A stretch of DNA of 64,000 bases, from the NCBI RefSeq assembly GCF_023023025.1, contig NZ_CP095481.1:7453001-7517000 (forward strand), given 5' to 3'. Position 1 is the first letter of the stretch; the number at the start of each line of letters is the position of its first letter. Positions 24,501 through 36,583 of the stretch are shown piece by piece. A model generated the notes under the pieces. That model had not been told where the DNA came from and did not search any database. It saw only the letters and a list, made by a program, of their open reading frames with translations. The DNA is from Amycolatopsis sp. WQ 127309. GTDB taxonomy: Bacteria > Actinomycetota > Actinomycetes > Mycobacteriales > Pseudonocardiaceae. The position numbers and the translations under genes are program-made.

Positions 24501-25429
24501 CCACGGTTCCGGTCGGCGCGAAGGCGACGATCCGGCTGCCGCTGCTCGGCGGCAAGCAGTCGTCCGTGCGGGAGAACGGCCGGACGATCTTCGCCGACGG
24601 CCACGCCGCCCAGGCCGACCCCGGCCTGACGGTCGGCCGGGCCGACGACGAGACGCTCACCCTGACCGCCGGTTCGGGCGACTACACGTTCACCGTGACG
24701 CCGCCGCGCACGCCGTTCACCCGGCTCGCGCTCACCACGGGCACACCCGCCGCGATCACCGCGGGCGGCAGCGGTGACGTCCCGGTCGTCGTCGAGGGAC
24801 GGTCCACTGTGGCCGGTCAGGCGACCCTCGGCGCGCAGGTGCCCGCGGGCTGGACCGCCACGACGACCGCGATCCCGTTGACCCCGGCCACCTCCGAGAC
24901 GCCGGGCAGTGTGCGGATCACCGTGCCCGCCGGCGCCAAGAGCGGCCTCTACCCGGTGACGCTGACCGTGAAGCCACCACGCGGTGAGGCGGTGAAGACG
25001 ACCGTGAACGTGCCGGTGTTCGGCAGCTGGGCGAGCGGCGCGACGGCGACGGCGTCGAGTGAGCACGCACCGAACGTCGTCGACGGCGCCACCCGCACCT
25101 ACCTGGCGTCGAACGCGATCGACCACGACCTCGCGACCTTCTGGAACGACGACACCGACAGCCAGTACCCGGACACGCTCACCGTCACGGCGCCCGCCGC
25201 GACCGCGCTGACCGGCGTCGGCTTCGCGTCCAACCCGGACGGCGTCCCGACCGACTTCACCGTGCAGACCTGGGACGGCGCTCAGTGGGCCGACCAGGTC
25301 CACGTCACCGGCAACACCGCCGTCCACCGGTGGATCCCGTTCCCGGCGCCGGTGACCACGACCCAGGTGCGGATCGCCGTCGCGGCCGCGCAGAACAGTT
25401 TCTCGAGGATCGCGGAGGTGACGCCGTGA
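21503..25429 (+). CDS. Secreted alpha-L-rhamnosidase, GH78, with discoidin-type domains
   Basis: A 1,308-residue exported enzyme that cleaves terminal alpha-L-rhamnose. ATG at 21503 lies 8 bases after AGGAG and a Sec signal peptide ends near ASAEP. In order: an N-terminal Ig-like domain (from LRADG), a GH78 N-terminal beta domain (DWSAWWLQ), an inserted F5/8-type discoidin domain (about 315-470), the GH78 concanavalin-like domain with FGQNRTGQA, the (alpha/alpha)6 barrel with DCPTRERHGWLGD (Glu651) and GTIWEKWD (Glu917), a C-terminal beta domain, then a NEW3-like segment and a second discoidin-type domain. The added carbohydrate-binding domains suggest a polysaccharide substrate such as rhamnogalacturonan. 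The stop overlaps the GH3 gene. Confidence 0.93.
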   Translation: MRRSGTSMKRRAVVVALALAAAVVPATTASAEPAHGGPLPPTALRADGQASNVLAGSPRPTLAWTVNDLGRAETQTAYEIRVDGPRSHWDSGRVVSGNSVDVAYTGPALDSDRTYEWSVRTWNSEGRQSPWSAPARFDTGLLQPADWSAWWLQVDDGALVRGGFDVTKPVARARLYFGAQGVAEPHLNGARVQPQQVLDSAVTDYAARVLYRDLDVTKLLKPGHNALAFMAGKGQYTGRPALVAQVDVTYTDGSTARFGTGTDWKAHAGPVTGDDFYYGETYDARKEIAGWDTAGFDAGAWPAAHAVAPASHRRSLAQGKLVTASDTTTCCGWSPAAATDGIDGSIDASEGYHSAIESSADNTKWAQVDLGSAQRLGSVTLFPARPTNDTSGDVVGAGFPVRYRVQVSDDPAFATATTVADRTGADQANPGTAAVTLPANVTGRYVRVTATKLACAGTSCTFRLAEIGVHGPNPAVVSSGVTQLQADVTPPTRIVANHDPVKETRPAPGVRVYDFGQNRTGQATLRAAQPAGTTASLKKGEILDANGRVSTANISFNGAEPPRQTDHYTFSGTGTETYLPHFNYAGFRYAELTGVPDDAAVTVTAQEIHTDVAATGRFGTSDPGLDQIQAAVTQTQLNNLESIQMDCPTRERHGWLGDAADSDQEAMANFDMQAFYTKWLGDMVTSAGADGSLPSVAPVNGRTDWLTDPAWGTAYPQIIWDSYTQYGNAQLLATHYDHVKAWVDYLGAISDADHVVVNPPTSWGDDWLSTVSTPHGYFQTGFSYLDAQLLAKMAAALGNRADATKYNALAAQIATGFLKRFYSAETGVFGTGTQLSYALPLVFGLVPAGREQSTVDRLVADVAAHQNHVTTGFVGTTLVFQALGKYQRNDVALAIAQRTDYPSFGYMVNQGPGTIWEKWDNSSAPDGTSSKDHIGLGGAIGQWFQQQLAGIQPGTPGWREFTLAPAVAGNLTHVTAQQQTVRGTVVSAWQRDGSTLTYHATVPVGAKATIRLPLLGGKQSSVRENGRTIFADGHAAQADPGLTVGRADDETLTLTAGSGDYTFTVTPPRTPFTRLALTTGTPAAITAGGSGDVPVVVEGRSTVAGQATLGAQVPAGWTATTTAIPLTPATSETPGSVRITVPAGAKSGLYPVTLTVKPPRGEAVKTTVNVPVFGSWASGATATASSEHAPNVVDGATRTYLASNAIDHDLATFWNDDTDSQYPDTLTVTAPAATALTGVGFASNPDGVPTDFTVQTWDGAQWADQVHVTGNTAVHRWIPFPAPVTTTQVRIAVAAAQNSFSRIAEVTP

Positions 25430-28400
25430 TACGGCGTGGAGCAGCCCTGATCGCGGCCGTGCTGATCACCGGCACGACCGTCCCCGCAGCGGCCGAGGCC
25501 GCGCCCGCTTCGCCTTCCGCTTGTCCCTGGGTGGGGTCCCACGCGCCCGTGGACAAGCGGGTGGCGCAGGTGCTCGGGCAGATGACGCTCGACGAGAAGA
25601 TCACGATGGTGCACGGCACCGCCGCCGGCGGCTACACCGGCCGCGTCGCGGGCGACGATCGGCTGTGCATCCCGTCGCTGAAGATGGAGGACGGCCCGCT
25701 GGGCGTCAACCTGGGCAACACCACCCAGCTGCCCGCCGCGTCCGCCGTCGCCGCGTCGTTCGACGCGGGGTTGGCCAAGACCTACGGGTCGGTGATCGGC
25801 GCCGAGGACAAGACGAAGGGCGTCGACGTCGACCTCGGCCCGACCATCAACATCGTGCGTGACCCGCGCTGGGGCCGCGCGTTCGAGTCCTACAGCGAAG
25901 ATCCGTACCTGGCCGGGCAGCTGGGCGCGGCCGACATCGACGGCGTCCAGTCCCAGGGCGTGATGGCGCAGGTGAAGCACTGGGCCGTCTACAACCAGGA
26001 GGAGAACCGCAACACCACCGCCGACAACGCGGTGATCGACGACCGGACCGTGCACGAGATCTACGCCAGCGCGTTTGGGAACGTCGTCGCGAAGGCCAAG
26101 CCGTCGTCGGCGATGTGCTCGTACTCCTCGATCAACGGCACCTACGCGTGTGAGAACCCGTACCTCAACGACATCCTGAAGCAGGACTTCGGGTTCGACG
26201 GCTTCATCACCTCCGACTGGGGTGCCACGCACAGCGCGGCCCCGTCGGCGAACGCCGGGATGGACATGGAGATGCCCGGCCAGGACTTCTTCGGCGCCAC
26301 GCTGAAGACGGCCGTCCAAAGTGGACAGGTGCCGCAGTCCCGGCTGGACGACATGGTCACCCGCATCCTGCGCGAGGAGTTCCGCTTCGGGCTGTTCGAC
26401 CACCCGTCGCCCGACACGCTCGACGCGGCCGCGTCGACCGCCGCGCACCTCGCGGTGGCCAAGAAGGCCGCCGAAGACGGCACGGTCCTGCTCAAGAACG
26501 ACGGCTTGCTGCCGCTGGACGCGCGCAAGCTGCGCTCGGTCGCGGTGATCGGCGACGGCGCGGGCAAGAACACGCTCAGCTCCGGCGGCGGCAGCGCGCA
26601 CATCGCCGGCACCGGCACGGTCACGCCGTTGGACGGCATCAAGGCGCGCGCCGGCTCGGGCATCGACGTCGAGTACGCGCAGGGCAACCTCGGCACCGGC
26701 AGCGCGCTGCCCCCGATCGAGAGCAGTGCGCTCAAGCCGCCGTCGGGGACCGGCAGCGGGCTGCAGGGGGACTACTACGCGAACACCGACTCGTCCGGGA
26801 CGCCGGTGGTGACCCGCACCGACCCGCAGGTGGCGTTCACCTTCAGCGGGGCGCCCGCGCCGGGCGTGCCCGCGACGAACTTCTCGGCCAAGTGGACCGG
26901 CACCCTCACCGCGCCCGCGACCGGCACCTACACCCTCGGCCTGACCAGCGACGACGGCAGCCGGCTGCTCGTCGGCGGGCAGCAGGTGATCGACAACTGG
27001 GGTGACCACGGCGCGCAGACCAAGACCGCGCAGGTCCCGCTCACCGCGGGGCAGCCGGTCCAGGTCGAGGTCGACTACTACCAGGGCGGCGGCGACGCCT
27101 CGGTCAGCCTCGGCTGGCTGCCGCCGGGGGAGGACCTCGCCGGGCAGGCGGCCGCGCTCGCCGCGAAGTCCGACGTCGCGGTCGTCTACGCCAACGACTA
27201 CGAGTCCGAAGGCGGCGACCTCGACGACATCGACCTGCCCGCCGACCAGAACAAGCTGATCGACGCCGTCGCGGCGGCCAACCCGAACACCGTCGTCGTG
27301 CTCAACACCGGCTCCGCCGTGACGATGCCGTGGCTGGCGAAGGTCAAGGGCGTCTTCGAGGCGTGGTACCCGGGCCAGGAAGCGGGGCACGCGATCGCGT
27401 CGCTGCTCTTCGGCGACGTCGCGCCGTCCGGCAAGCTGCCGGTGACGTTCCCGGCGTCGCTCGGCCAGGTGCCCGCGTCGACGCCGGAGCAGTGGCCGGG
27501 TGTCGACGGCAAGGTCCAGTACTCCGAGGGTCTCGACGTCGGCTACCGCTGGTACGACCGGAAGAACCTGACGCCGTTGTACCCCTTCGGTTTCGGGCTC
27601 TCGTACACGAACTTCCGGTTCTCGAACCTGAAGGTGGACGGCGACACCCTGCGGGAGAACGGCCGGATCTCGGTCAGCGCCGACGTCACCAACACCGGTG
27701 CGCGGCGCGGCGCCGAGGTCGCCCAGCTGTACCTGAGCGATCCGGCGTCCACCGGCGAGCCGGTCAACCAGCTCAAGGGCTTCCAGAAGGTGGACCTCCA
27801 GCCGCGCCAGACGCAACGGGTCCGGTTCGAGCTGACCGCGCAGGACGCGTCGTACTGGAGCACCGACGCACACGCGTGGGAACTCGGCGTCGGCCGGTAC
27901 ACCGTCCGCGTCGGCGACTCGTCCCGGAACCTCCCGCTGTCGGGCGGTTTCCGCGTCGACCACACCACCGGGCCGCGGTTCACGAAGGTGGCCGCGCCCG
28001 CGATCGCGGCGCCCGGCAAGACCCTCTCGGTGACGACCACCTTCACCAACGGCGCCACCGAAGCCGTGCACGACGCGGTGACGACTCTGGCTGTCCCGGC
28101 GGGCTGGAAGGCGACCCCGCGCACCCCGGCGGTCGTCCGGACGGTCCGGCCGGGGGAGTCGGTGCCGACGACCTGGGCGGTGACGGCCGGCGCTTCGGCG
28201 GCGCCCGGCCCGGTCTCGCTGTCCGCCACCACCCGGTACGCGGGTGGCTCGGTCCGGGGCACGGCGTCCACGCAGGTCGCCTACCCGAACCTGGCCGCGG
28301 CGTACACGGACGTCGGCGTCACCGACGACGCCGACCCGGCGCCGGGCAACCTCGACGGCGCGGGCTTCAGCTTCTCCGCCCAGGCCCTGGACTCGGTGGG

Positions 28401-28836
28401 CGTCCACCCCGGCGGCCCGGTCACGAGCGGCGCGGCGACGTTCACCTGGCCGGACGTCCCGGCGGGTCAGCGGGACACGGTGACCACGGCCGGTCAGAGC
28501 GTCAGCCTCACCGGCTCGGGGACGGCGCTGAACCTGCTGACCACCGGCACGAACGGCACCCAGAGCGGCCCGGTCACCGTGACCTACGCCGACGGCACGA
28601 CGTCCACCTCGACGCTCACCGTCGCGGACTGGTACGCGAACCAGGCCGTGGCCGGCTGCGTGCTCGTGGCGACGACGCCGTACTGGAACCGCCCCGCGGG
28701 AAGTACGTACCCGCACGACCAGAAGGTGAGTCTCTACGCGGCTTCCGTGCCGCTGACGGCGTCGAAGCAGGTCGCGTACGTGACGCTGCCGTCGAACAAG
28801 CAGCTGCACGTCTTCGCGACGGCGTTCACCGCGTGA
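25426..28836 (+). CDS. Secreted GH3 beta-glycosidase with PA14 and C-terminal domains
   Basis: A 1,136-residue exported GH3 enzyme (beta-glucosidase-like). The GTG at 25426 overlaps the GH78 stop (GTGA) and lies 6 bases after GGAGG, giving a signal peptide (ALIAAVLITGTTVPAAAEA). The barrel has MEDGPLGVN, KHWAVYNQEENR and the nucleophile Asp264 in TSDWGATH. A PA14 module (about 443-570; LTSDDGSRLLVGG) is inserted in the second domain. An Fn3-like domain (FGFGLSYTNF) follows, then a NEW3-like segment and a C-terminal beta domain ending in YVTLPSNKQLHVF, often seen at the end of actinobacterial glycosidases. Coupling to GH78 suggests removal of a glycan exposed by the rhamnosidase, or the reverse. 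Confidence 0.92.
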   Translation: MIRRGAALIAAVLITGTTVPAAAEAAPASPSACPWVGSHAPVDKRVAQVLGQMTLDEKITMVHGTAAGGYTGRVAGDDRLCIPSLKMEDGPLGVNLGNTTQLPAASAVAASFDAGLAKTYGSVIGAEDKTKGVDVDLGPTINIVRDPRWGRAFESYSEDPYLAGQLGAADIDGVQSQGVMAQVKHWAVYNQEENRNTTADNAVIDDRTVHEIYASAFGNVVAKAKPSSAMCSYSSINGTYACENPYLNDILKQDFGFDGFITSDWGATHSAAPSANAGMDMEMPGQDFFGATLKTAVQSGQVPQSRLDDMVTRILREEFRFGLFDHPSPDTLDAAASTAAHLAVAKKAAEDGTVLLKNDGLLPLDARKLRSVAVIGDGAGKNTLSSGGGSAHIAGTGTVTPLDGIKARAGSGIDVEYAQGNLGTGSALPPIESSALKPPSGTGSGLQGDYYANTDSSGTPVVTRTDPQVAFTFSGAPAPGVPATNFSAKWTGTLTAPATGTYTLGLTSDDGSRLLVGGQQVIDNWGDHGAQTKTAQVPLTAGQPVQVEVDYYQGGGDASVSLGWLPPGEDLAGQAAALAAKSDVAVVYANDYESEGGDLDDIDLPADQNKLIDAVAAANPNTVVVLNTGSAVTMPWLAKVKGVFEAWYPGQEAGHAIASLLFGDVAPSGKLPVTFPASLGQVPASTPEQWPGVDGKVQYSEGLDVGYRWYDRKNLTPLYPFGFGLSYTNFRFSNLKVDGDTLRENGRISVSADVTNTGARRGAEVAQLYLSDPASTGEPVNQLKGFQKVDLQPRQTQRVRFELTAQDASYWSTDAHAWELGVGRYTVRVGDSSRNLPLSGGFRVDHTTGPRFTKVAAPAIAAPGKTLSVTTTFTNGATEAVHDAVTTLAVPAGWKATPRTPAVVRTVRPGESVPTTWAVTAGASAAPGPVSLSATTRYAGGSVRGTASTQVAYPNLAAAYTDVGVTDDADPAPGNLDGAGFSFSAQALDSVGVHPGGPVTSGAATFTWPDVPAGQRDTVTTAGQSVSLTGSGTALNLLTTGTNGTQSGPVTVTYADGTTSTSTLTVADWYANQAVAGCVLVATTPYWNRPAGSTYPHDQKVSLYAASVPLTASKQVAYVTLPSNKQLHVFATAFTA

Positions 28837-29644
28837 AGCCGTAGCGCAGGAACCGCATGGCGTCGCGGACCGGCGGCACGTGGGCGAACGCCCGCGTGAC
28901 CGCCCGGGCCGCGGCGCCGTTCTGGTGCCCGCCGATCAGGTCGACGGCGGACCGTTCGTCGAGCAGCCGCAGCGGCGGGTGCTCGGTGGCGAAGGCTTCC
29001 GGCGCGGGCATCGCCCAGCGGAAGCCGGTGTCCGCGCGGCGCATCGAGGGCTGCAGGCCCGCGACCGTCTTGACCCACGGCGCGACGCCGTCGAAGACCA
29101 GCCGGCCGCTGGGGAAGTGCCGCAGCGCCCGGTCGACCAGCCGGTCCACGTCGTCCGGGGCGAGGTACATCAGCAGCCCTTCGGCGAGTACCAGCGCGGG
29201 CCGGTCGGCCGGGATCTCGTCCCACCACGCGGCTTCGGTGACCGACGAGCCCACGGTGCGGACGCCCTCGATCGGTCCGTAGAGGCGTTCGCGGAGTTCG
29301 ATGACGTCGGGGTAGTCGACGTCGATCCATTGCGCGGTCGCCGGGCGCTCGATGCGCAGCGGGCGGCTGTCCAGGCCGCACGCCAGGTGCAGCACCAGGC
29401 CGTCGGGGTGGCCGGCGAGGAAGTCGCGGGTCCAGGCGTCGAACTGGCGGGCCCGGGTGGCGATCAGCGGCGCGTTGCCCTTGAGGTTGCCGAGCCGGCC
29501 GAAGTCGTAGTCGATCCGGTCGACGACGTCCTGCGCGAACGGGTCACCGAGGATCGGCGTCGTGCGGAGGTTGTCGAGGGCGCGCAGGTACAGCGCCATC
29601 AGCAGGGTTTCCTTCTCCTGGCTCAGGCGGACCTGTTCGGTCAT
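28826..29644 (-). CDS. LCMT/Ppm-type class I SAM-dependent methyltransferase
   Basis: A 272-residue leucine-carboxyl-methyltransferase-fold protein. It shows the family's VRLSQEKETLLMALYLRALD start, ACGLDSRPLR for the SAM pocket, the DVDYPDV acidic motif and LVLAEGLLMYL. Actinobacterial members methylate small molecules or unknown targets. Its 3' end overlaps the convergent GH3 gene by 11 bases. Its 5' end overlaps the upstream MarR-type gene by 101 bases, an unusual arrangement. Confidence 0.87.
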   Translation of the reverse strand: MTEQVRLSQEKETLLMALYLRALDNLRTTPILGDPFAQDVVDRIDYDFGRLGNLKGNAPLIATRARQFDAWTRDFLAGHPDGLVLHLACGLDSRPLRIERPATAQWIDVDYPDVIELRERLYGPIEGVRTVGSSVTEAAWWDEIPADRPALVLAEGLLMYLAPDDVDRLVDRALRHFPSGRLVFDGVAPWVKTVAGLQPSMRRADTGFRWAMPAPEAFATEHPPLRLLDERSAVDLIGGHQNGAAARAVTRAFAHVPPVRDAMRFLRYGFTR

Positions 29645-30080
29645 CGGGGTCTCCGTTCTCCGGCGGCCGCAGGAGCGAGCCGACCCAGTGGTAGACGGAT
29701 TGCGCGGCGCGCAGCCGGGACGCGCGTTCGGCGTCGCGGCCGACGAGGTCGAGGCCCTGGTGGAGGACGTCCTCGAAGGCGCTCATGCCTTCGATGCGCC
29801 GGCGGACGGCGGTTTCCCAGCCCTGGTCGTCGAGCCGGTAGTAGGCGGTGCGGTCACCGGCGCGGGTGTAGCGGCGGACGAGCCCGGTGGCGGTCAGGGA
29901 GCGGATGTTCGCCGTCATCGACGCGCGGCTCGCCTTGATCCCGGCGGCGATGTCGGCCGCGGACTGTTCGGCGGGCTCGCAGATCATCAGCCAGCCGAGG
30001 ATGCGCCCGGTGATCGGCGGCAGCCCTTCCTGGCGCGCGAAGAAGGCCGAGACCTGCTCGATCCAGGCTTCCTCGTTCAC
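29544..30080 (-). CDS. GbsR/MarR-type regulator with an extended tail
   Basis: A winged-helix regulator read from GTG at 30080, 8 bases after GGAGG. The HTH is AADIAAGIKASRASMTANIRS, with a wing (RYTRAGDRTAYYRLDD). The fold appears complete by VGSLLRPP, about residue 140. The last 38 residues are Pro/Gly-rich and are read out of frame through the start of the methyltransferase gene, so a lost stop codon or a frameshift near 29660 is possible. It probably regulates the methyltransferase gene it overlaps. Confidence 0.78.
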   Translation of the reverse strand: MNEEAWIEQVSAFFARQEGLPPITGRILGWLMICEPAEQSAADIAAGIKASRASMTANIRSLTATGLVRRYTRAGDRTAYYRLDDQGWETAVRRRIEGMSAFEDVLHQGLDLVGRDAERASRLRAAQSVYHWVGSLLRPPENGDPDDRTGPPEPGEGNPADGAVPARPRQPPHDADPR

Positions 30081-30223
30081 CCGCGTCTCCCTCCAGTCAT
30101 TACAGTCATGACTGTAACACGTGTCGGATGTGACCCGGCTCACTCGCGGACGAAGTTTCTGTGATCCAGGATGGTCGGGCCCGGTCTCCTGGTCGTACGG
30201 GAATTCGTCGGCGGAGTGAGGGT

Positions 30224-32083
30224 GTGGACGTGATCGGTCAGAAGCGGCTCGAGCAGGTGGACGTGTCGCAGGTGGTCGCCGCGCGAGCCGGCGACAGCAC
30301 GGCGCTCGACGCGCTGGTCGCGGCGTACCTGCCGCTGGTCTACAGCATCGCCGGCCGCGCACTCTCGTCGGACGCCGACGTCGACGACGTCGTCCAGGAG
30401 ACGATGCTGCGCGTCCTGCGGGGCATCGAGACCCTGCGCGAGCCCGCCAGGTTCCGGTCGTGGCTGGTCGCAGTGACGATCAACCAGATCCGCGAGCACC
30501 ACCGCCGCCGAAGCGCGGCCCCGGACCCGCTGGCCGAGTACGACGAGCGCCCGGACCCGGCCGCCGAGTTCGCCGAGACGGCGTTGGCCCGGCTGCACAT
30601 AGCGGAGCAACGCCGCGAGGTCGACGAGGCGGCCCGCTGGCTGGACCCCGCGGACCGCGAACTGCTGGCCCTGTGGACCCTCGAGCGCGCCGGGCACCTG
30701 ACCCGCACGGAGGTCGCGGAGGCCCTGCGCCTGGACGCCCACCTGGTGACGGTCCGGGTGAGCAGGCTGAAGACCCGCCTGGAGACGATCCGCCCGTTGG
30801 TGCGCGCGCTGACGGCCGAGCCGCGCTGCGCCCGCCTGGACCAGGCATCATCGGGCTGGTCGGGCCGCCCGGGACCGCTGTGGCGCAAGCGGTTCCTGCG
30901 CCACGTGGAGGAGTGCGTGCGTTGCCGCCGCGAGACGGACGACGCGGTCCCGGTGGACAGGATCCTCACGGGCGCGGCGTTGCTGGTGCTCCCGGCCGGG
31001 TACTTGCCGCAACTACTGGCGAACCTGTGGGACGTGGTCTCGGGATCGGCGGTAGGCGGCCCGCTCGCGGCCGGTGGCAGTACGGCTGCGGGTGGTGGTG
31101 CGAGTGCTGCAGGTGGTGCCGCGGGCAGTGGCGCAAGCGGTGCCGTGGGCGGTGGTGGCGTTGGGAGTGGGGCAAGCGCCGCCGCCGGGAGTGGTGGTGC
31201 CGCCGGAGGCGGCACGGCTGCGGGTGCTGGTGCCGGGAGTGCTGCGGGTGGTGCCGTAAGTGGTGCGGTCGCGAGTGCGGGCGCCGCAGCCGGAGTTGGC
31301 CCGGGCGCTGCCGTAGGAGCTGGTGCCGTCGCCGCGGGTGGTGCTGTGGCGGCCGGTTCCCTTGCCCGGCTTCTCGCCGCGAAGCCTTTTCTCGCGGCGG
31401 CCGGCGCTGCGGTCGTCTGCGCGCTCGGCGTGGCCGGGGCCGTGGCGCTTTCCCAGCCGGGGCAGCCGATCCAGCCGCCGGCCGCGCTGTCCGGGGGTGT
31501 CTCCCGTCCTGCTCCGGTGCCCGAGACCAAGCCCGGCACCACCGCAGCCCCGACCTCCGCCCCGGTGGCGAGCACCTCGGCGCCGGCGTCCACACAAGCG
31601 AGTTCGACGCCGACGCCCGCCGCACCGCCGGCCCCGAGTTCGGCGAAACCGCGCGTCCTGACGCCCGAGGAACGGGTCCTCGCCCTGATCAACGACCAGC
31701 GCGCCGCCGCGGGGCTGCCCGCGCTGCGGATGGATCCCGCGCTCGTCACCGGAGCCGCGGCGCACAACCGGACGATGGCCGGCGGCTGCGGCCTGTCGCA
31801 CCAGTGCCCCGGCGAGGCCCCGCTAGGCGACCGCGAGCACGCGGCGGGCGCACAGTGGAACTCGGCGGGCGAGAACATCGGCACGGGTGGCCCCGTAGCC
31901 GACGCGACCGACCCGATCGCCCGGATGGCCCTAGGTCTGACCCAGAGCATGATCGACGAGAAGCCCCCGAACGACGGCCACCGCCGCAACATCCTGAGCA
32001 CCTCCTTCACCCGCATCGGCATCGTGGTCACCCGCGACTCCCACGGTTCGGTCTGGCTGACCCAGGATTTCGCCGGCAGCTGA
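30224..32083 (+). CDS. Membrane-tethered ECF sigma factor with zinc anti-sigma motif and extracytoplasmic CAP domain
   Basis: A 619-residue fusion. Residues about 30-95 are sigma region 2 (YSIAGRALSSDADVDDVVQE, FRSWLVAVTINQIREH) and 145-190 region 4 (WLDPADRELLALW, VSRLKTRLE). Next is HVEECVRC with His227, Cys231 and Cys234, the HX3CX2C signature of zinc-binding anti-sigma factors. A long Gly/Ala/Ser linker (about 275-385), one clear membrane segment (about 389-409), a Pro/Thr/Ala stalk, and a CAP/SCP domain (about 485-617; HNRTMAGG, AGENIG, GHRRNILS) follow. The GTG at 30224, 7 bases after GGAG, is preferred over the upstream ATG at 30161. The layout implies a sigma factor held at the membrane by its own anti-sigma and sensor region. 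Confidence 0.87.
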   Translation: MDVIGQKRLEQVDVSQVVAARAGDSTALDALVAAYLPLVYSIAGRALSSDADVDDVVQETMLRVLRGIETLREPARFRSWLVAVTINQIREHHRRRSAAPDPLAEYDERPDPAAEFAETALARLHIAEQRREVDEAARWLDPADRELLALWTLERAGHLTRTEVAEALRLDAHLVTVRVSRLKTRLETIRPLVRALTAEPRCARLDQASSGWSGRPGPLWRKRFLRHVEECVRCRRETDDAVPVDRILTGAALLVLPAGYLPQLLANLWDVVSGSAVGGPLAAGGSTAAGGGASAAGGAAGSGASGAVGGGGVGSGASAAAGSGGAAGGGTAAGAGAGSAAGGAVSGAVASAGAAAGVGPGAAVGAGAVAAGGAVAAGSLARLLAAKPFLAAAGAAVVCALGVAGAVALSQPGQPIQPPAALSGGVSRPAPVPETKPGTTAAPTSAPVASTSAPASTQASSTPTPAAPPAPSSAKPRVLTPEERVLALINDQRAAAGLPALRMDPALVTGAAAHNRTMAGGCGLSHQCPGEAPLGDREHAAGAQWNSAGENIGTGGPVADATDPIARMALGLTQSMIDEKPPNDGHRRNILSTSFTRIGIVVTRDSHGSVWLTQDFAGS

Positions 32084-32099: not shown

Positions 32100-32700
32100 C
32101 CGGCGAAGGCACCCAAGCTCCCCGGCGAGCCGGGTGACCTCCCGGAGAACCCGGCCTGCCGCAATCCGTGACCTCGCCAGCCCGGCCGGGCGAGACCGGC
32201 GAACCCGGCGATCCGGCGCTCGCCGACCCGGTGGCCAGCTGCTCGGCGACCGCCAGCCCAGCCGGGCGAGACCGGCGAACCCGGCGATCCGGTGAATTCG
32301 GCGCTCGCCGACCCGGTGATCAGCTGCCCGGGGACCGCGCCAGCCCGGCCGGGCGAGACCCGGCAAACCCGAGCGCCCCGGCGGATCCAGGGCTCAGTGA
32401 CCTGGTGGCCAGCTACTCGGGGACCGCGCCAACCCAGCCGGGCAAGAGCCGGCGAACCCAAGCAACCCGGCGTATCCAGCGACCCAGTGCCTGGCGACCC
32501 AGTGCCCAGCCGCTCGGTGACCAGCTACTCGGCGACCCCGTGAACCCGGCAAACCCGGCGTCTCAGCGACCGGCGAACCCGGCGAAACCCCGGCGAACCC
32601 AGCAAACCTTCAGAGAGCCCAGCGACCCCATCAACCGACCCAGCGACCCGGCAACCCGGCAACTCGGCGACCCCATCAACCGACCCAGCGACCCGGCCTA
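32100..32700. repeat. Degenerate tandem repeat region (minisatellite-like)
   Basis: About 600 bp of diverged units of roughly 80-110 bp built from phrases such as CCAGCCGGGCGAGACC, GGCGAACCCGGCGATCC, CTCGCCGACCCGGTG and CAGCTACTCGG. A perfect 30-bp unit occurs at 32623-32652 and 32668-32697. Several frames stay open across the repeats on both strands, but none has a ribosome site or a recognisable product. The region separates the sigma-CAP gene from the GH87-like gene and looks non-coding. Confidence 0.75.
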
Positions 32701-32815
32701 CCCTCGCCATCACAACCTCCGTCCTTTGTAGACCGACAAGCGCGCGCGACCAAACGGCGTCCTCCTGATGGAGCAACGCTGCTTAGTCGTAAATTTACTC
32801 ATCCATGTCAAGTTC

Positions 32816-32843
32816 TTGCATGTTGTCTCTCGGTTGTTGCATG
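32816..32843. promoter_or_regulatory. Two TTGCATG direct repeats, 21-bp period, upstream of the GH87-like gene
   Basis: TTGCATG occurs at 32816-32822 and 32837-32843, two helical turns apart, in an AT-richer stretch before the start at 32894. This is a plausible binding site for a regulator of the glycosidase. The factor is not known. Confidence 0.4.
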
Positions 32844-32893
32844 CTCGTACGACTCTGGCTCCCCTCCTGCTGTCTCGAAGAAGAGAAGACGCC

Positions 32894-35800
32894 ATGACTC
32901 GTATGCGCCTGTCCCGGCTCGTCGCAGGTCTCCTCGCCGCGGGGCTCACCCTCACCGGGCTCGCCTCCGCGGCCGGTGCGCCACCACCGCCACCACCCTC
33001 GGATACCGCCCAAGTCCGGCCGGCCGCGCTCGCGGACGTGCCGCTGACCCGCACCGTGTCGGCCAGCAGTGCGCTGCCCGGCTATCCCGTCGCCAACACC
33101 GTCGACGGCAACCAGGACACCTACTGGGAGTCCGCGAACAACGCCTTCCCGCAGTGGCTCCAAGCCGACCTCGGGTCGGCCAAGACGCTCTCGCGGGTCG
33201 TGCTGAAACTGCCCGCGGCCTGGGAGTCCCGCACCCAGACCCTCGCCGTGCGCGGCAGCGCCGACGGCACCTCGTTCACCGACCTCGCCGCCTCGAAGGG
33301 CTATGCGTTCGGGGGCACCGTGACGATCCCGGTGACGGCGTCGGCCCGGTACGTGCGGCTGAACATCACCGCCAACACGCAGTGGCCCGCCGCGCAGCTC
33401 TCGGAGTTCGAGCTCTACGGCGCGGACACCGGCGACACGCAGGCCCCGACCGCGCCGGCGAACCTCGCGCTGACCGAGCCCGGCTCCGGCCGGATCGGGC
33501 TGAGCTGGTCGGCCTCGACCGACAACGTCGGCGTCACCGGCTACACCGTCTACCGGGACAACACGCCCGTCACGACGGTCACCGGCACCACCTTCGGTGA
33601 GACGCGCCCCGCGGGCACCCGCGTCGAGTACTTCGTGCGAGCCAAGGACGCCGCCGGCAACGAGTCCGCCGACAGCAACCACGTGGTGCGCCAAGGCACC
33701 CAGGCCGGCCAGAACCTCGCCGCCGGCAAGCCGATCGAGGCGTCGTCGACGGTCAACGACTTCGTCGCCACCAACGCCAACGACGGCAACACCGCCACGT
33801 ACTGGGAGTCCGCCGCGGGCTACCCGAACACGCTGACGGTGAAGCTCGGCGCCAACGCCGACCTCGACTCGGTCGTCGTGAAGCTCAACCCGGACGCGGC
33901 CTGGGGCGCGCGGACGCAGAACTTCGAGGTCCTCGGCCGTGACCAGGGTGCGACCGCGTTCACGTCGCTGAAGGCCCGCGCCGACTACCGCTTCGACCCG
34001 GCCGGCAACCAGAACTCGGTGACCGTCCCGGTCAGCGGGCGGGCCGCGGACGTCCGGCTGCAGTTCTCCGCCAACTCCGGCGCGCCCGGCGGGCAGGTCG
34101 CCGAGTTCCAGGTGCTCGGCACCCCGGCGCCGAACCCGGACCTCGTCGTCACCGGCACGTCCTGGACGCCGGCGAACCCGACCGAGACCAGCCAGGTCGC
34201 GGTGTCGGCGACGGTCAAGAACGCGGGGACCGCGAACGCGGCCGCGACCACCGTGAACGTCAGCCTCGGCGGCACGGTCGTCGGCAACGCGGCCGTCGGC
34301 GCGCTCGCCGCGGGCGCGTCCACCACGGTGACGGTGAACGCGGGCACTCGGCCGCAGGGCACCTACAGCGTGTCCGCGACCGTCGACCCGGCCAACACCG
34401 TGGTCGAGCAGAACGACACCAACAACACCTACACCTCACCGACACAGCTCGTCATCGCACAGGCGCCGGGGCCGGACCTCGAGGTCACCGGCATCACGTC
34501 GAACCCGCCGAACCCGGCGGTCGGCGCGGCCGTGTCGTTCACCGTCGCGGTGCACAACCGCGGCACGAGCAGCGCGGGCGCGTCCGTCACCCGGGTGACC
34601 GTCGGCGCCACCACGCTCGACGCCACCACCGCCGCGATCGCGGCCGGTGCCACGGCGAACGTCGCGGTGCCGGGCACCTGGACCGCCACCAACGGCGGCG
34701 CCACCCTGACCGCGACGGCCGACGCGACGAACACCGTCGCGGAGACCAGCGAGTCCAACAACGCGCTCTCGCGGGCGATCGTCGTGGGCCGCGGCGCGGC
34801 GGTGCCGTACACCGAGTACGAGGCGGAAGCCGCGCAGTACCAAGGAGAACTGCTGACGGCCGACCCGCTGCGCACGTTCGGGCACACGAACTTCGCGACC
34901 GAGTCCTCGGGCCGCCAGTCCGTGCGGCTGGCGAGCCAGGGCCAGTACGTCGAGGTCACGTCGACGAACCAGTCGAACTCGATCGTCGTGCGCAACTCGG
35001 TGCCCGACGCCGCGGCCGGCGGCGGCCAGGACTACACGCTCAGCCTGTACGTCAACGGCGCGTTCGCCCAGAAGCTGACGCTCTCCTCGACGCACAGCTG
35101 GCTCTACGGCACCACCGACGACCCGGAGGGCCTCACCAACCGGCCCGGGGGAGACGCGCGGCGGCTGTTCGACGAGTCGCACGCGCTGCTGGCGCAGTCG
35201 TACCCGCCGGGCACGAAGTTCAAGCTGCAGCGGGACAGCGGTGACAACGCGGCGTTCTACGTCCTGGACCTGGTCGACCTGGAGCAGGTCGCCCCGGCGA
35301 CGGCCAAGCCGGCCGAGTGCACCTCGATCACCGAGTACGGCGCGGTGCCGAACGACGGCGTCGACGACTCCACGGCGATCCAGCGCGCGGTGACCGACGA
35401 CCAGAACGGCGTCATCGCGTGCGTGTGGATCCCCGAAGGGCAGTGGCGGCAGGAGAAGAAGATCCTGACCGACGACCCGAACGTGCCCAACGGCGGCGGC
35501 CAGTACAACCAGATCGGCATCTCCAACGTGACGGTCAAGGGGGCCGGCATGTGGCGCTCGCAGCTGTACTCGCTGATCCAGCCGCAGGACGCGGGCACGA
35601 TCAACCACCCGCACGAGGGCAACTTCGGGTTCGACATCGACAAGAACGTGCAGCTTTCCGACATCGCCATCTTCGGGTCCGGCCGGATCCGCGGCGGCGA
35701 CGGCAACGCCGAGGGCGGCGTCGGCCTCAACGGCCGGTTCGGCACGGGCACGAAGATCGCGAACGTCTGGATCGAGCACGCGAACGTGGGCGTGTGGGTC

Positions 35801-36583
35801 GGCCGGGACTACGGCAACATCCCGGCGCTGTGGGGGCCGGCCGACGGCCTCGAGTTCAGCGGCGTGCGGATCCGCGACACCTACGCCGACGGCATCAACC
35901 TCACGAACGGCAGCCGGAACTCGCGGGTGTTCAACTCGTCGTTCCGCACCACCGGTGACGACTCGCTCGCGGTGTGGGCGAGCCAGTACGTGAAGGACCC
36001 GTCGGTGGACATCGGGCACGACAACGTGTTCACCAACAACACGATCCAGCTTCCGTGGCGCGCCAACGGGATCGCGATCTACGGCGGGTACGGCAACAAG
36101 ATCGAGAACAACCTCGTCTACGACACGATGAACTACCCGGGCATCATGCTGGCGACCGACCACGACCCGCTGCCGTTCTCCGGGCAGACGACGATCGCCA
36201 ACAACGCCCTCTACCGCTGCGGCGGCGTGTTCTGGGGCGAGCAGCAGAAGTTCGGCGCGATCACGTTCTTCGCGCAGAGCAAGGACATCCCGGGGGTGAC
36301 GTTGCGGGACACCGAGATCCACGACTCGACCTACGACGGCATCCAGTTCAAGACGGGCGGCGGCGTCGTGACCGCGGCCGTCACGAACGTCAAGATCGAC
36401 AAGTCGAACAACGGCGCGGGCATCCTCGCGATGAGTGGCGCCCGCGGCAGCGCGACGCTGACGAACGTGGCGATCACCAACTCGTCGACGGGCAACGTCG
36501 TCGTCGAGCCGGGTTCGCAGTTCGTGATCAACGGCGCGCCGATCCCGGCAGTGGTCGCCTCAGGCCGCCGCGAAACGAGGTAA
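32894..36583 (+). CDS. Secreted multidomain beta-helix glycosidase, GH87-like
   Basis: A 1,229-residue exported protein with a Sec signal peptide. Domains in order: discoidin/CBM32-like (about 45-180), Fn3 (about 185-270), a second discoidin-like domain (about 275-410), two CARDB domains (about 415-635), a CBM35/CBM6-like domain (YTEYEAEAAQYQG onward), and a right-handed beta-helix beginning CTSITEYGAVPNDGVDDSTAIQ. The helix contains RDTYADGINLTNGSRNSRVF and TGDDSLAVW, which resemble GH87 alpha-1,3-glucanases/mycodextranases more than pectinases. A fungal alpha-1,3-glucan substrate is likely but not certain. ATG at 32894 has only a weak purine-rich ribosome site. Confidence 0.82.
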   Translation: MTRMRLSRLVAGLLAAGLTLTGLASAAGAPPPPPPSDTAQVRPAALADVPLTRTVSASSALPGYPVANTVDGNQDTYWESANNAFPQWLQADLGSAKTLSRVVLKLPAAWESRTQTLAVRGSADGTSFTDLAASKGYAFGGTVTIPVTASARYVRLNITANTQWPAAQLSEFELYGADTGDTQAPTAPANLALTEPGSGRIGLSWSASTDNVGVTGYTVYRDNTPVTTVTGTTFGETRPAGTRVEYFVRAKDAAGNESADSNHVVRQGTQAGQNLAAGKPIEASSTVNDFVATNANDGNTATYWESAAGYPNTLTVKLGANADLDSVVVKLNPDAAWGARTQNFEVLGRDQGATAFTSLKARADYRFDPAGNQNSVTVPVSGRAADVRLQFSANSGAPGGQVAEFQVLGTPAPNPDLVVTGTSWTPANPTETSQVAVSATVKNAGTANAAATTVNVSLGGTVVGNAAVGALAAGASTTVTVNAGTRPQGTYSVSATVDPANTVVEQNDTNNTYTSPTQLVIAQAPGPDLEVTGITSNPPNPAVGAAVSFTVAVHNRGTSSAGASVTRVTVGATTLDATTAAIAAGATANVAVPGTWTATNGGATLTATADATNTVAETSESNNALSRAIVVGRGAAVPYTEYEAEAAQYQGELLTADPLRTFGHTNFATESSGRQSVRLASQGQYVEVTSTNQSNSIVVRNSVPDAAAGGGQDYTLSLYVNGAFAQKLTLSSTHSWLYGTTDDPEGLTNRPGGDARRLFDESHALLAQSYPPGTKFKLQRDSGDNAAFYVLDLVDLEQVAPATAKPAECTSITEYGAVPNDGVDDSTAIQRAVTDDQNGVIACVWIPEGQWRQEKKILTDDPNVPNGGGQYNQIGISNVTVKGAGMWRSQLYSLIQPQDAGTINHPHEGNFGFDIDKNVQLSDIAIFGSGRIRGGDGNAEGGVGLNGRFGTGTKIANVWIEHANVGVWVGRDYGNIPALWGPADGLEFSGVRIRDTYADGINLTNGSRNSRVFNSSFRTTGDDSLAVWASQYVKDPSVDIGHDNVFTNNTIQLPWRANGIAIYGGYGNKIENNLVYDTMNYPGIMLATDHDPLPFSGQTTIANNALYRCGGVFWGEQQKFGAITFFAQSKDIPGVTLRDTEIHDSTYDGIQFKTGGGVVTAAVTNVKIDKSNNGAGILAMSGARGSATLTNVAITNSSTGNVVVEPGSQFVINGAPIPAVVASGRRETR

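Follow-up and report, generated by a model that had tools for sequence, protein, structure and literature searches.

Proteins in which an ECF sigma factor is fused to a zinc domain and a membrane segment have been published for the groups ECF48, ECF52 (SCO4117) and ECF53, and the passages devoted to them present proteolytic release of the sigma part as expected rather than as shown (PMC8999054, PMC5826349). Some ECF52 and ECF53 proteins carry glycosyl hydrolase or carbohydrate-binding heads (PMC8999054, PMC10766802), which the passage concerned says lack experimental validation (PMC10766802). SCO4117 is termed the first characterized ECF52 member in a text that suggests autoregulation and proposes cleavage (PMC5826349). 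A further fused sigma factor, IutY, is described as activated by intramembrane cleavage, and oxidation-responsive zinc anti-sigma domains are likewise known (PMC8999054). RsgI factors are described as sensing substrates, being cut in their membrane helix and passing the signal on to a sigma factor (PMC12203970). The preliminary description of the locus analyzed here started from the view that sigma factor, anti-sigma factor and sensor are normally separate proteins, and saw the interest in the complete arrangement; with such fusions already published, what stands of this is a conserved one-chain layout with an unusual CAP head.

The window, that is, the whole 64,000-nucleotide stretch of contig NZ_CP095481.1 of Amycolatopsis sp. 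WQ 127309, contains the following features (residues numbered from the GTG at 30224):

30156 to 30189, forward strand: predicted autoregulatory ECF promoter, TTTC-TGTGATC, 17-nt spacer, GTCTCC (phylogenetic footprint)
30160 to 30166 and 30184 to 30189, forward strand: its -35 and -10 (GTCTCC) elements
30213 to 30216, forward strand: GGAG, likely ribosome-binding site (sequence)
30224 to 32083, forward strand: one-chain sigma factor, zinc domain, TM and CAP protein, 619 aa, GTG start (sequence, Pfam)
30314 to 30514, forward strand: sigma region 2, residues 31-97 (Pfam Sigma70_r2, 1.6e-18)
30617 to 30814, forward strand: sigma region 4, approximate (TIGR02937, AF2 secondary structure, clade comparison)
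within 30617 to 30814, forward strand: recognition helix, residues ~172-197, with the clade-specific H173, T176 and S180
30815 to 31003, forward strand: fused zinc anti-sigma-type domain (motif conservation), putatively zinc-binding
30827 to 30829, 30902 to 30904, 30914 to 30916 and 30923 to 30925, forward strand: C202, H227, C231 and C234 of that domain, which also holds W212 and WRKR 220-223
31031 to 31369, forward strand: Gly/Ala-rich cytoplasmic tether, of variable length in relatives
31388 to 31444, forward strand: membrane helix, core residues 389-407, predicted N-in/C-out (hydropathy 2.26, charge)
31463 to 31663, forward strand: Pro/Ser/Thr-rich outer stalk (sequence)
31679 to 32071, forward strand: CAP (SCP/PR-1) head (Pfam, residue conservation, AF2, PDB matches)

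Scanning named genomes yielded at least 428 relatives, the best 80 of which were used; they come from Lentzea, Amycolatopsis, Streptomyces, Streptacidiphilus, Micromonospora, Actinoplanes and others. Two protein sets were drawn up: a first of 78, which was retrieved with CAP words and in which CAP heads are hence over-represented, and a second of 33 from profile searches, including the window protein and three further Amycolatopsis proteins. The 107 proteins compared below are the 112 from the window, the 80 loci and 31 additional loci minus L046, L074, L078, L111 and L113; L103, a relative that came up in one search and not in another, is left out of the counts of 107 and 112. With a sigma-plus-zinc profile at E up to 1e-40, the family is present in 4 of 80 Amycolatopsis genomes and, class-wide, in 24 of 296 spread over 6 of 115 genera (own genome included in each count), and 18 plasmid records match the sigma/zinc part. 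The own genome holds one strong family match, and three weaker ones (E 2.3e-13 or worse) that are partial.

Sigma regions 2 and 4 and the CAP domain do lie on a single chain, as the preliminary description had it: one open frame of 619 residues gives Pfam matches to Sigma70_r2 (E 1.6e-18, residues 31-97) and CAP (E 2.1e-12, residues 486-616), and the NCBIfam sigma70-ECF model TIGR02937 (E 3.2e-23) spans both sigma regions. The Pfam region-4 model gave no match to the window protein at E up to 1; the helix-turn-helix of region 4 is supported by AF2 helices at 161-167 and 172-197. The start at 30224 is favored because the alternative start, a GTG at 30161, falls inside the conserved promoter. 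A frameshift or internal start splitting the sigma from the CAP part was looked for, and the frame from 30224 to 32083 proved single and open throughout. Homologs bear out the same architecture, with sigma factor, zinc motif and C-terminal head in one frame in the relatives used, and Sigma70_r2 is present in all 78 proteins of the first set and 32 of the 33 of the second. The few exceptions are L046 and L078, whose tails are apparently out of frame (L078 also leaves its stretch), L111, whose head is not recognized, and L114, in which the sigma part is split; the frames of L074 and L113 extend past the end of their stretches. Two separate genes, or a frameshift, are therefore rejected, since the window protein and its relatives other than L046, L078, L111 and L114 each come from a single frame.

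The zinc anti-sigma (ZAS) family is defined by an HX3CX2C motif with an upstream fourth ligand. The zinc motif had been described as His227, Cys231 and Cys234, which are present as claimed; the description was incomplete in that a fourth residue, Cys202, is equally conserved, the signature C202-x24-H227-x3-C231-x2-C234 being found in all 107 proteins compared. The window protein thus has the ZAS-type feature of HX3CX2C with an upstream fourth residue and does not match the curated zinc anti-sigma profile, the Pfam zinc anti-sigma and zinc-finger models having given no hit at E up to 1. Further, W212 and WRKR 220-223 are invariant in the first set (78/78), and in the second set of 33 R221 alone is invariant, W212 and the rest of WRKR being kept in at least 90%. 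From this conservation we predict that C202, H227, C231 and C234 bind zinc, with C202 as the fourth ligand. The hydrophobic stretch at 247-265 is probably part of the zinc region; a second membrane helix at this position is not favored because the CAP head would then lie inside, in conflict with the charge pattern and the stalk.

An AF2 model of residues 1-274 (pLDDT 79.8; pTM 0.56, which is low) packs regions 2 and 4 in a manner resembling SigW/RsiW (rmsd 3.3 over 156), CnrH/CnrY (3.5 over 154) and RpoE/NepR (3.9 over 147), a comparison that spans mainly residues 7-192 and matches no solved anti-sigma factor to the zinc domain. SigK/RskA aligns with an rmsd of 8.6 over 132, alignments with SigE/RseA and AlgU/MucA are confined to region 2, and polymerase-bound ECF sigma factors, when aligned over both regions, give an rmsd of ~26. 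SigG1 (7qh5), an entry naming no anti-sigma factor, also matches the model (2.8 over 137), and AF2 may draw free ECF sigma factors closed anyway. The closed packing of the model speaks for a held-back sigma part, although the full set of structures is mixed.

The protein is most hydrophobic across residues 389-407 (mean hydropathy 2.26). This segment is preceded by 15 residues that include two K/R and followed by 15 that include none, a pattern that predicts the CAP end to be outside and agrees with the single membrane helix and extracytoplasmic CAP domain described earlier. The bias holds across the 107 family proteins, with more K/R before the helix in 98, fewer in 1 and equal numbers in 8; hence, we take the Gly/Ala tether to be inside and the Pro/Ser/Thr-rich stalk, which connects the helix to the CAP domain, to be outside together with the latter. 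The Gly/Ala linker is likewise present (70% G+A), with a length of 119 residues by the measure used here in place of the 110 previously given. Across the 107 proteins the tether ranges from 10 to 221 residues, with a median of 43 and a length of 28 in A. xylanica (L001).

The AF2 model of the CAP head (pLDDT 96.3) matches bacterial SCP proteins (PDB 4ifa, 4h0a, 4d53), GAPR-1, plant PR-1 and Pry1, with all of which the window head has the CAP fold in common; we know of no sigma fusions among these proteins. H514, H526, E550 and H586, which we take to line the CAP cavity, are conserved at 96-100% among 74 CAP-headed proteins, and this pattern of conservation would suit a working cavity. The suggestion that the CAP domain cuts an envelope ligand found no support in this analysis; the head may sense something. 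The own genome codes for three more CAP proteins (L081-L083; frames of 197-254 aa), which are not fused to a sigma factor, and a promoter-motif search of this genome gave no site for them.

The outer heads differ among the relatives (CAP, glycosidase, AbfB, beta-helix), so that the window protein is a CAP-headed variant within a wider family. Pfam recognizes CAP in 56, Glyco_hydro_cc in 10 and AbfB in 5 proteins of the CAP-enriched first set (n=78), and CAP in 21, Glyco_hydro_cc in 3, AbfB in 2 and a beta-helix in 1 of the second (n=33). Head types, called from Pfam matches and by eye, were placed on a quickly built tree of 108 sigma/zinc parts, where they track sigma clade, requiring 10 changes versus 31.9 in shuffles. 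The CAP heads fall in two starred clades and account for 3 changes, at least 2 of which are forced by starred branches; one of these clades contains a degenerate CAP-like head (L013). Among heads without a Pfam match, one unnamed type is common to nine proteins (L031, L053, L056, L063, L110, L112, L116, L117 and L118), and L034 and L039 have, as judged by eye, a lytic-transglycosylase-like and a repeat-rich one.

Upstream of the gene, an alignment of the family reveals a conserved block that persists where the flanks diverge. Counting element pairs de novo, TGTGA...GTCTC occurs in 25/29 members of the window's clade and GTTAT...TCTCC in 38/45 of the other CAP clade, 11/13 of the glycosidase-headed and 6/9 of those with the unnamed head type, whereas none of three shufflings gave more than 4; the 7 upstream regions of AbfB-headed members gave different pairs, mostly from close relatives. 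The pattern TTTCTGTNAYC-N15-18-GTCTCC, which was derived from the same upstream regions on which it was scored, is found within 2 mismatches upstream of 66/108 family genes (0 in 10 shufflings) and with up to 4 mismatches upstream of 90/108 (4.6 in shuffles). Hence, 42/108 genes have no site within 2 mismatches and 18/108 none within 4, and in the window's clade the site is absent from L026 and L029. The window site itself (30156-30189) is a perfect match.

The window's clade has TGTGA instead of TGTTAT in the -35 element, and this difference goes together with three residues of sigma region 4. Residue 173 is His in 30/30 members of the clade and 0/78 others, residue 176 is Thr in 29/30 versus 2/78, and residue 180 is Ser, Ala or Gly in 30/30, the others having Gln in 73/78 and Ala in 1; their spacing would place the three on one face of the recognition helix. 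Among sites within 2 mismatches, GA(C/T) follows TGT for 28/28 H173 proteins and 0/38 others, and with up to 4 mismatches for 28/28 versus 1/62 (GAC); the change is a single event on the tree, and these counts are therefore not independent. A joint shift of the -35 element and the helix that reads it is what would be expected of an autoregulated sigma factor.

A search of the own genome (11.1 Mb) for TGTGAYC-N16-18-GTCTCC gave a single site, that of the sigma gene itself. Each of three other gene-holding genomes has a site at the gene plus one further site elsewhere, and of four genomes without the sigma gene one has a site. The longer pattern, allowing up to 2 mismatches, gives five sites in the four gene-holding genomes, four of them at the gene. 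A search for sites away from the sigma gene, covering 81 stretches (1.06 Mb), found ones within 2 mismatches in L031, L045, L053, L059, L073 and L075; those in L046 and L074 lie ahead of their own sigma frames and were not counted. The L031 site is upstream of a protein with Alginate_lyase and AbfB domains, and those of L059 and L075 are upstream of AbfB proteins, the L059 one with a sub-cut-off GH43 Pfam match. Of the AbfB-headed chromosomal loci with flanks, 4/5 have a gene for an AbfB protein nearby, and 3/5 the motif with 2 mismatches.

Sixteen of the 18 plasmid records were examined, ten of them CAP-headed and four AbfB-headed. A second CAP gene lies in the stretch in 4/10 of the CAP-headed plasmid loci (L146, L149, L155 and L158), preceded by the motif with 0 mismatches in L146 and 1 each in L155 and L158, and not preceded by it in L149; the stretches of the other 6/10 hold no second CAP gene. 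Among 80 chromosomal loci, a second CAP place was found in L027 only, with no motif hit there. Two AbfB-headed plasmid loci (L153 and L159) adjoin GH10-GH62 genes and have weak sites with 2 and 3 mismatches, that of L153 preceding a small intervening gene; L147 has a GH10 gene nearby and L148 an adjoining beta-helix gene, neither with a site. Since such head-matching neighbors bear the motif, the head appears to indicate the subject of the system in part of the family; the window's own copy has no nearby head-matching gene with the motif. Near one CAP-headed sigma gene, a ricin-type lectin protein with a sub-cut-off Reprolysin match (L151:7383-9554) lies 3' of a 2-mismatch motif.

As to the surroundings in the window, a perfect 18-bp palindrome, TTACAGTCATGACTGTAA, at 30100-30117 lies between the sigma gene and a divergent MarR-like gene (~29544-30082, reverse strand). 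Its center is altered symmetrically in L127, and it is possibly a MarR operator. Just 5' of the -35 element, an inverted repeat like GTGACC-nn-GGTCAC (~30129-30143) is kept in Amycolatopsis and Lentzea relatives and is a possible second regulator site. An 89-bp tandem repeat in 3.3 copies follows the gene at 32189-32481, and the gene is flanked by those for a PA14-containing GH3 protein and for an alpha-1,3-glucanase carrying F5/8C and CARDB domains (25285-28836 and 32768-36583). A conserved operon was not found: in tblastx comparisons with 14 loci (pieces of at least 80 aa), the flanks match those of L127 (from the close relative G066) and none of the 13 others, among which L129 and L001 appear to share one place.

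Starting from the architecture, the topology signals, the zinc-motif conservation, the joint change of promoter and sigma region 4 and the nearby promoter copies in some relatives, as read from sequence comparison, we infer a one-component, membrane-tethered ECF sigma factor with a zinc lock, CAP sensing, release by cleavage and autoregulation, a reading that we regard as somewhat probable. The fused zinc domain (C202/H227/C231/C234) would hold both sigma regions in check at the membrane, and the CAP head on its Pro/Ser/Thr stalk would detect an envelope or surface ligand or state. In response to a signal the chain would be cut, initially on the outer side or at the edge of the membrane and next within the helix, and this, with loss of the zinc lock, would free the sigma part; such proteolytic release is plausible. 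The free sigma factor would read TGTGA(C/T)C-N17-GTCTCC and transcribe its own gene in positive feedback, and in some relatives it might also read a nearby gene with the head-type domain or for the same substrate class.

Alternatively, the sigma factor might be active while still tethered, a CAP ligand altering the zinc domain and the tether reaching polymerase and promoter with no cleavage at all. The long flexible cytoplasmic tether of the window protein (119 residues) and the single target site found in its genome would fit this idea, but tether length is not conserved (10-221, median 43; 28 in L001) and the fused IutY is described as activated by intramembrane cleavage (PMC8999054); we consider it unlikely. 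That the own-genome search yields the sigma gene alone would agree with the head being the output, such that the sigma factor mainly makes its own surface protein and the CAP, glycosidase or AbfB domain works outside, possibly once it has been shed. Matches to enzyme families (Glyco_hydro_cc, beta-helix) are seen for several heads, and a second CAP gene is missing from the vicinity of most CAP-headed relatives; in some relatives, however, the nearby motif-bearing gene encodes a separate protein with the same domain, which suits the head as sensor and the neighbor as effector, and we doubt that the head is mainly an output. A redox switch, in which cysteine oxidation inside frees the sigma factor and the CAP domain is a mere wall anchor, would have precedent in the oxidation-responsive zinc anti-sigma domains (PMC8999054). 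Yet, the heads vary, track sigma clades and are in some cases matched by nearby genes, which suggests outside sensing and makes the redox switch very improbable.

The locus could also be a self-contained one-gene circuit, a single polypeptide combining sensor, lock, transcription factor and surface output, with its own promoter as the only strong target in its genome, an outer domain that can be exchanged and that in some family members points to the nearby target gene, and a reading helix and -35 element shifted together in the window's CAP clade. We offer this fuller picture as a speculative one. Many actinobacteria are predicted to encode fused sigma/anti-sigma proteins, and the family offers a handle on them through its recognizable promoter, a head readable from the sequence and neighbors that sometimes hint at the substrate. 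It also presents a naturally occurring shift in promoter specificity, traced to a trio of recognition-helix residues, and, should the CAP head be the sensor, a bacterial CAP ligand could be sought with a reporter assay.

Going by titles among the matches listed, we found no text on a CAP/ECF-sigma fusion in open-access PMC, and the ECF classification papers may well cover CAP heads or the motif. IutY serves iron-starvation cell-surface signaling and has, to our knowledge, no zinc domain or CAP head, and SigI and RsgI are separate sigma and anti-sigma proteins of another family, with other domains. Like the window protein, IutY (Pseudomonas putida, ECF243) joins a sigma factor and a membrane anti-sigma factor in one chain, and it is described as freed by intramembrane proteolysis (PMC8999054); SigI/RsgI (Clostridium thermocellum) is similar in working mode (PMC12203970). 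The ECF52 protein SCO4117 (Streptomyces coelicolor), as presented in its description, agrees in domain order, having a sigma factor, zinc finger, membrane helix, proline-rich stalk and outer head in one gene (PMC5826349), but its head is a carbohydrate-binding one (smart00776, NPCBM-type) and that of the window protein is CAP. As ECF52 proxies we used three Streptomyces proteins (L124-L126), picked by architecture and distinct from SCO4117 itself, against which the window sigma part gave no blastp match at E up to 10; membership of ECF52 is rejected on this lack of similarity to the proxies together with the CAP head, and the window protein therefore belongs elsewhere. The three proteins have C-x25-H-x3-C-x2-C, a Gly/Ala tether and the same domain order in common with it, with no blastp similarity. 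Two separate origins of the common sigma/zinc/TM design, or very deep divergence, may lie behind this. For ECF53, CAP heads go unmentioned in the cited passages, and its zinc finger at the C-terminal end and its one or two membrane helices agree with the window protein (PMC8999054, PMC10766802); the GH or carbohydrate heads of some of its members are paralleled by the Glyco_hydro_cc and AbfB heads of the window's relatives. The zinc motif, the helix and the GH/AbfB heads in relatives are ECF53-type features and equally ECF52 features, hence not diagnostic; the window protein perhaps belongs to ECF53. The general design is a known one, and the CAP-headed version and the promoter for possible self-activation seem to be its new details.
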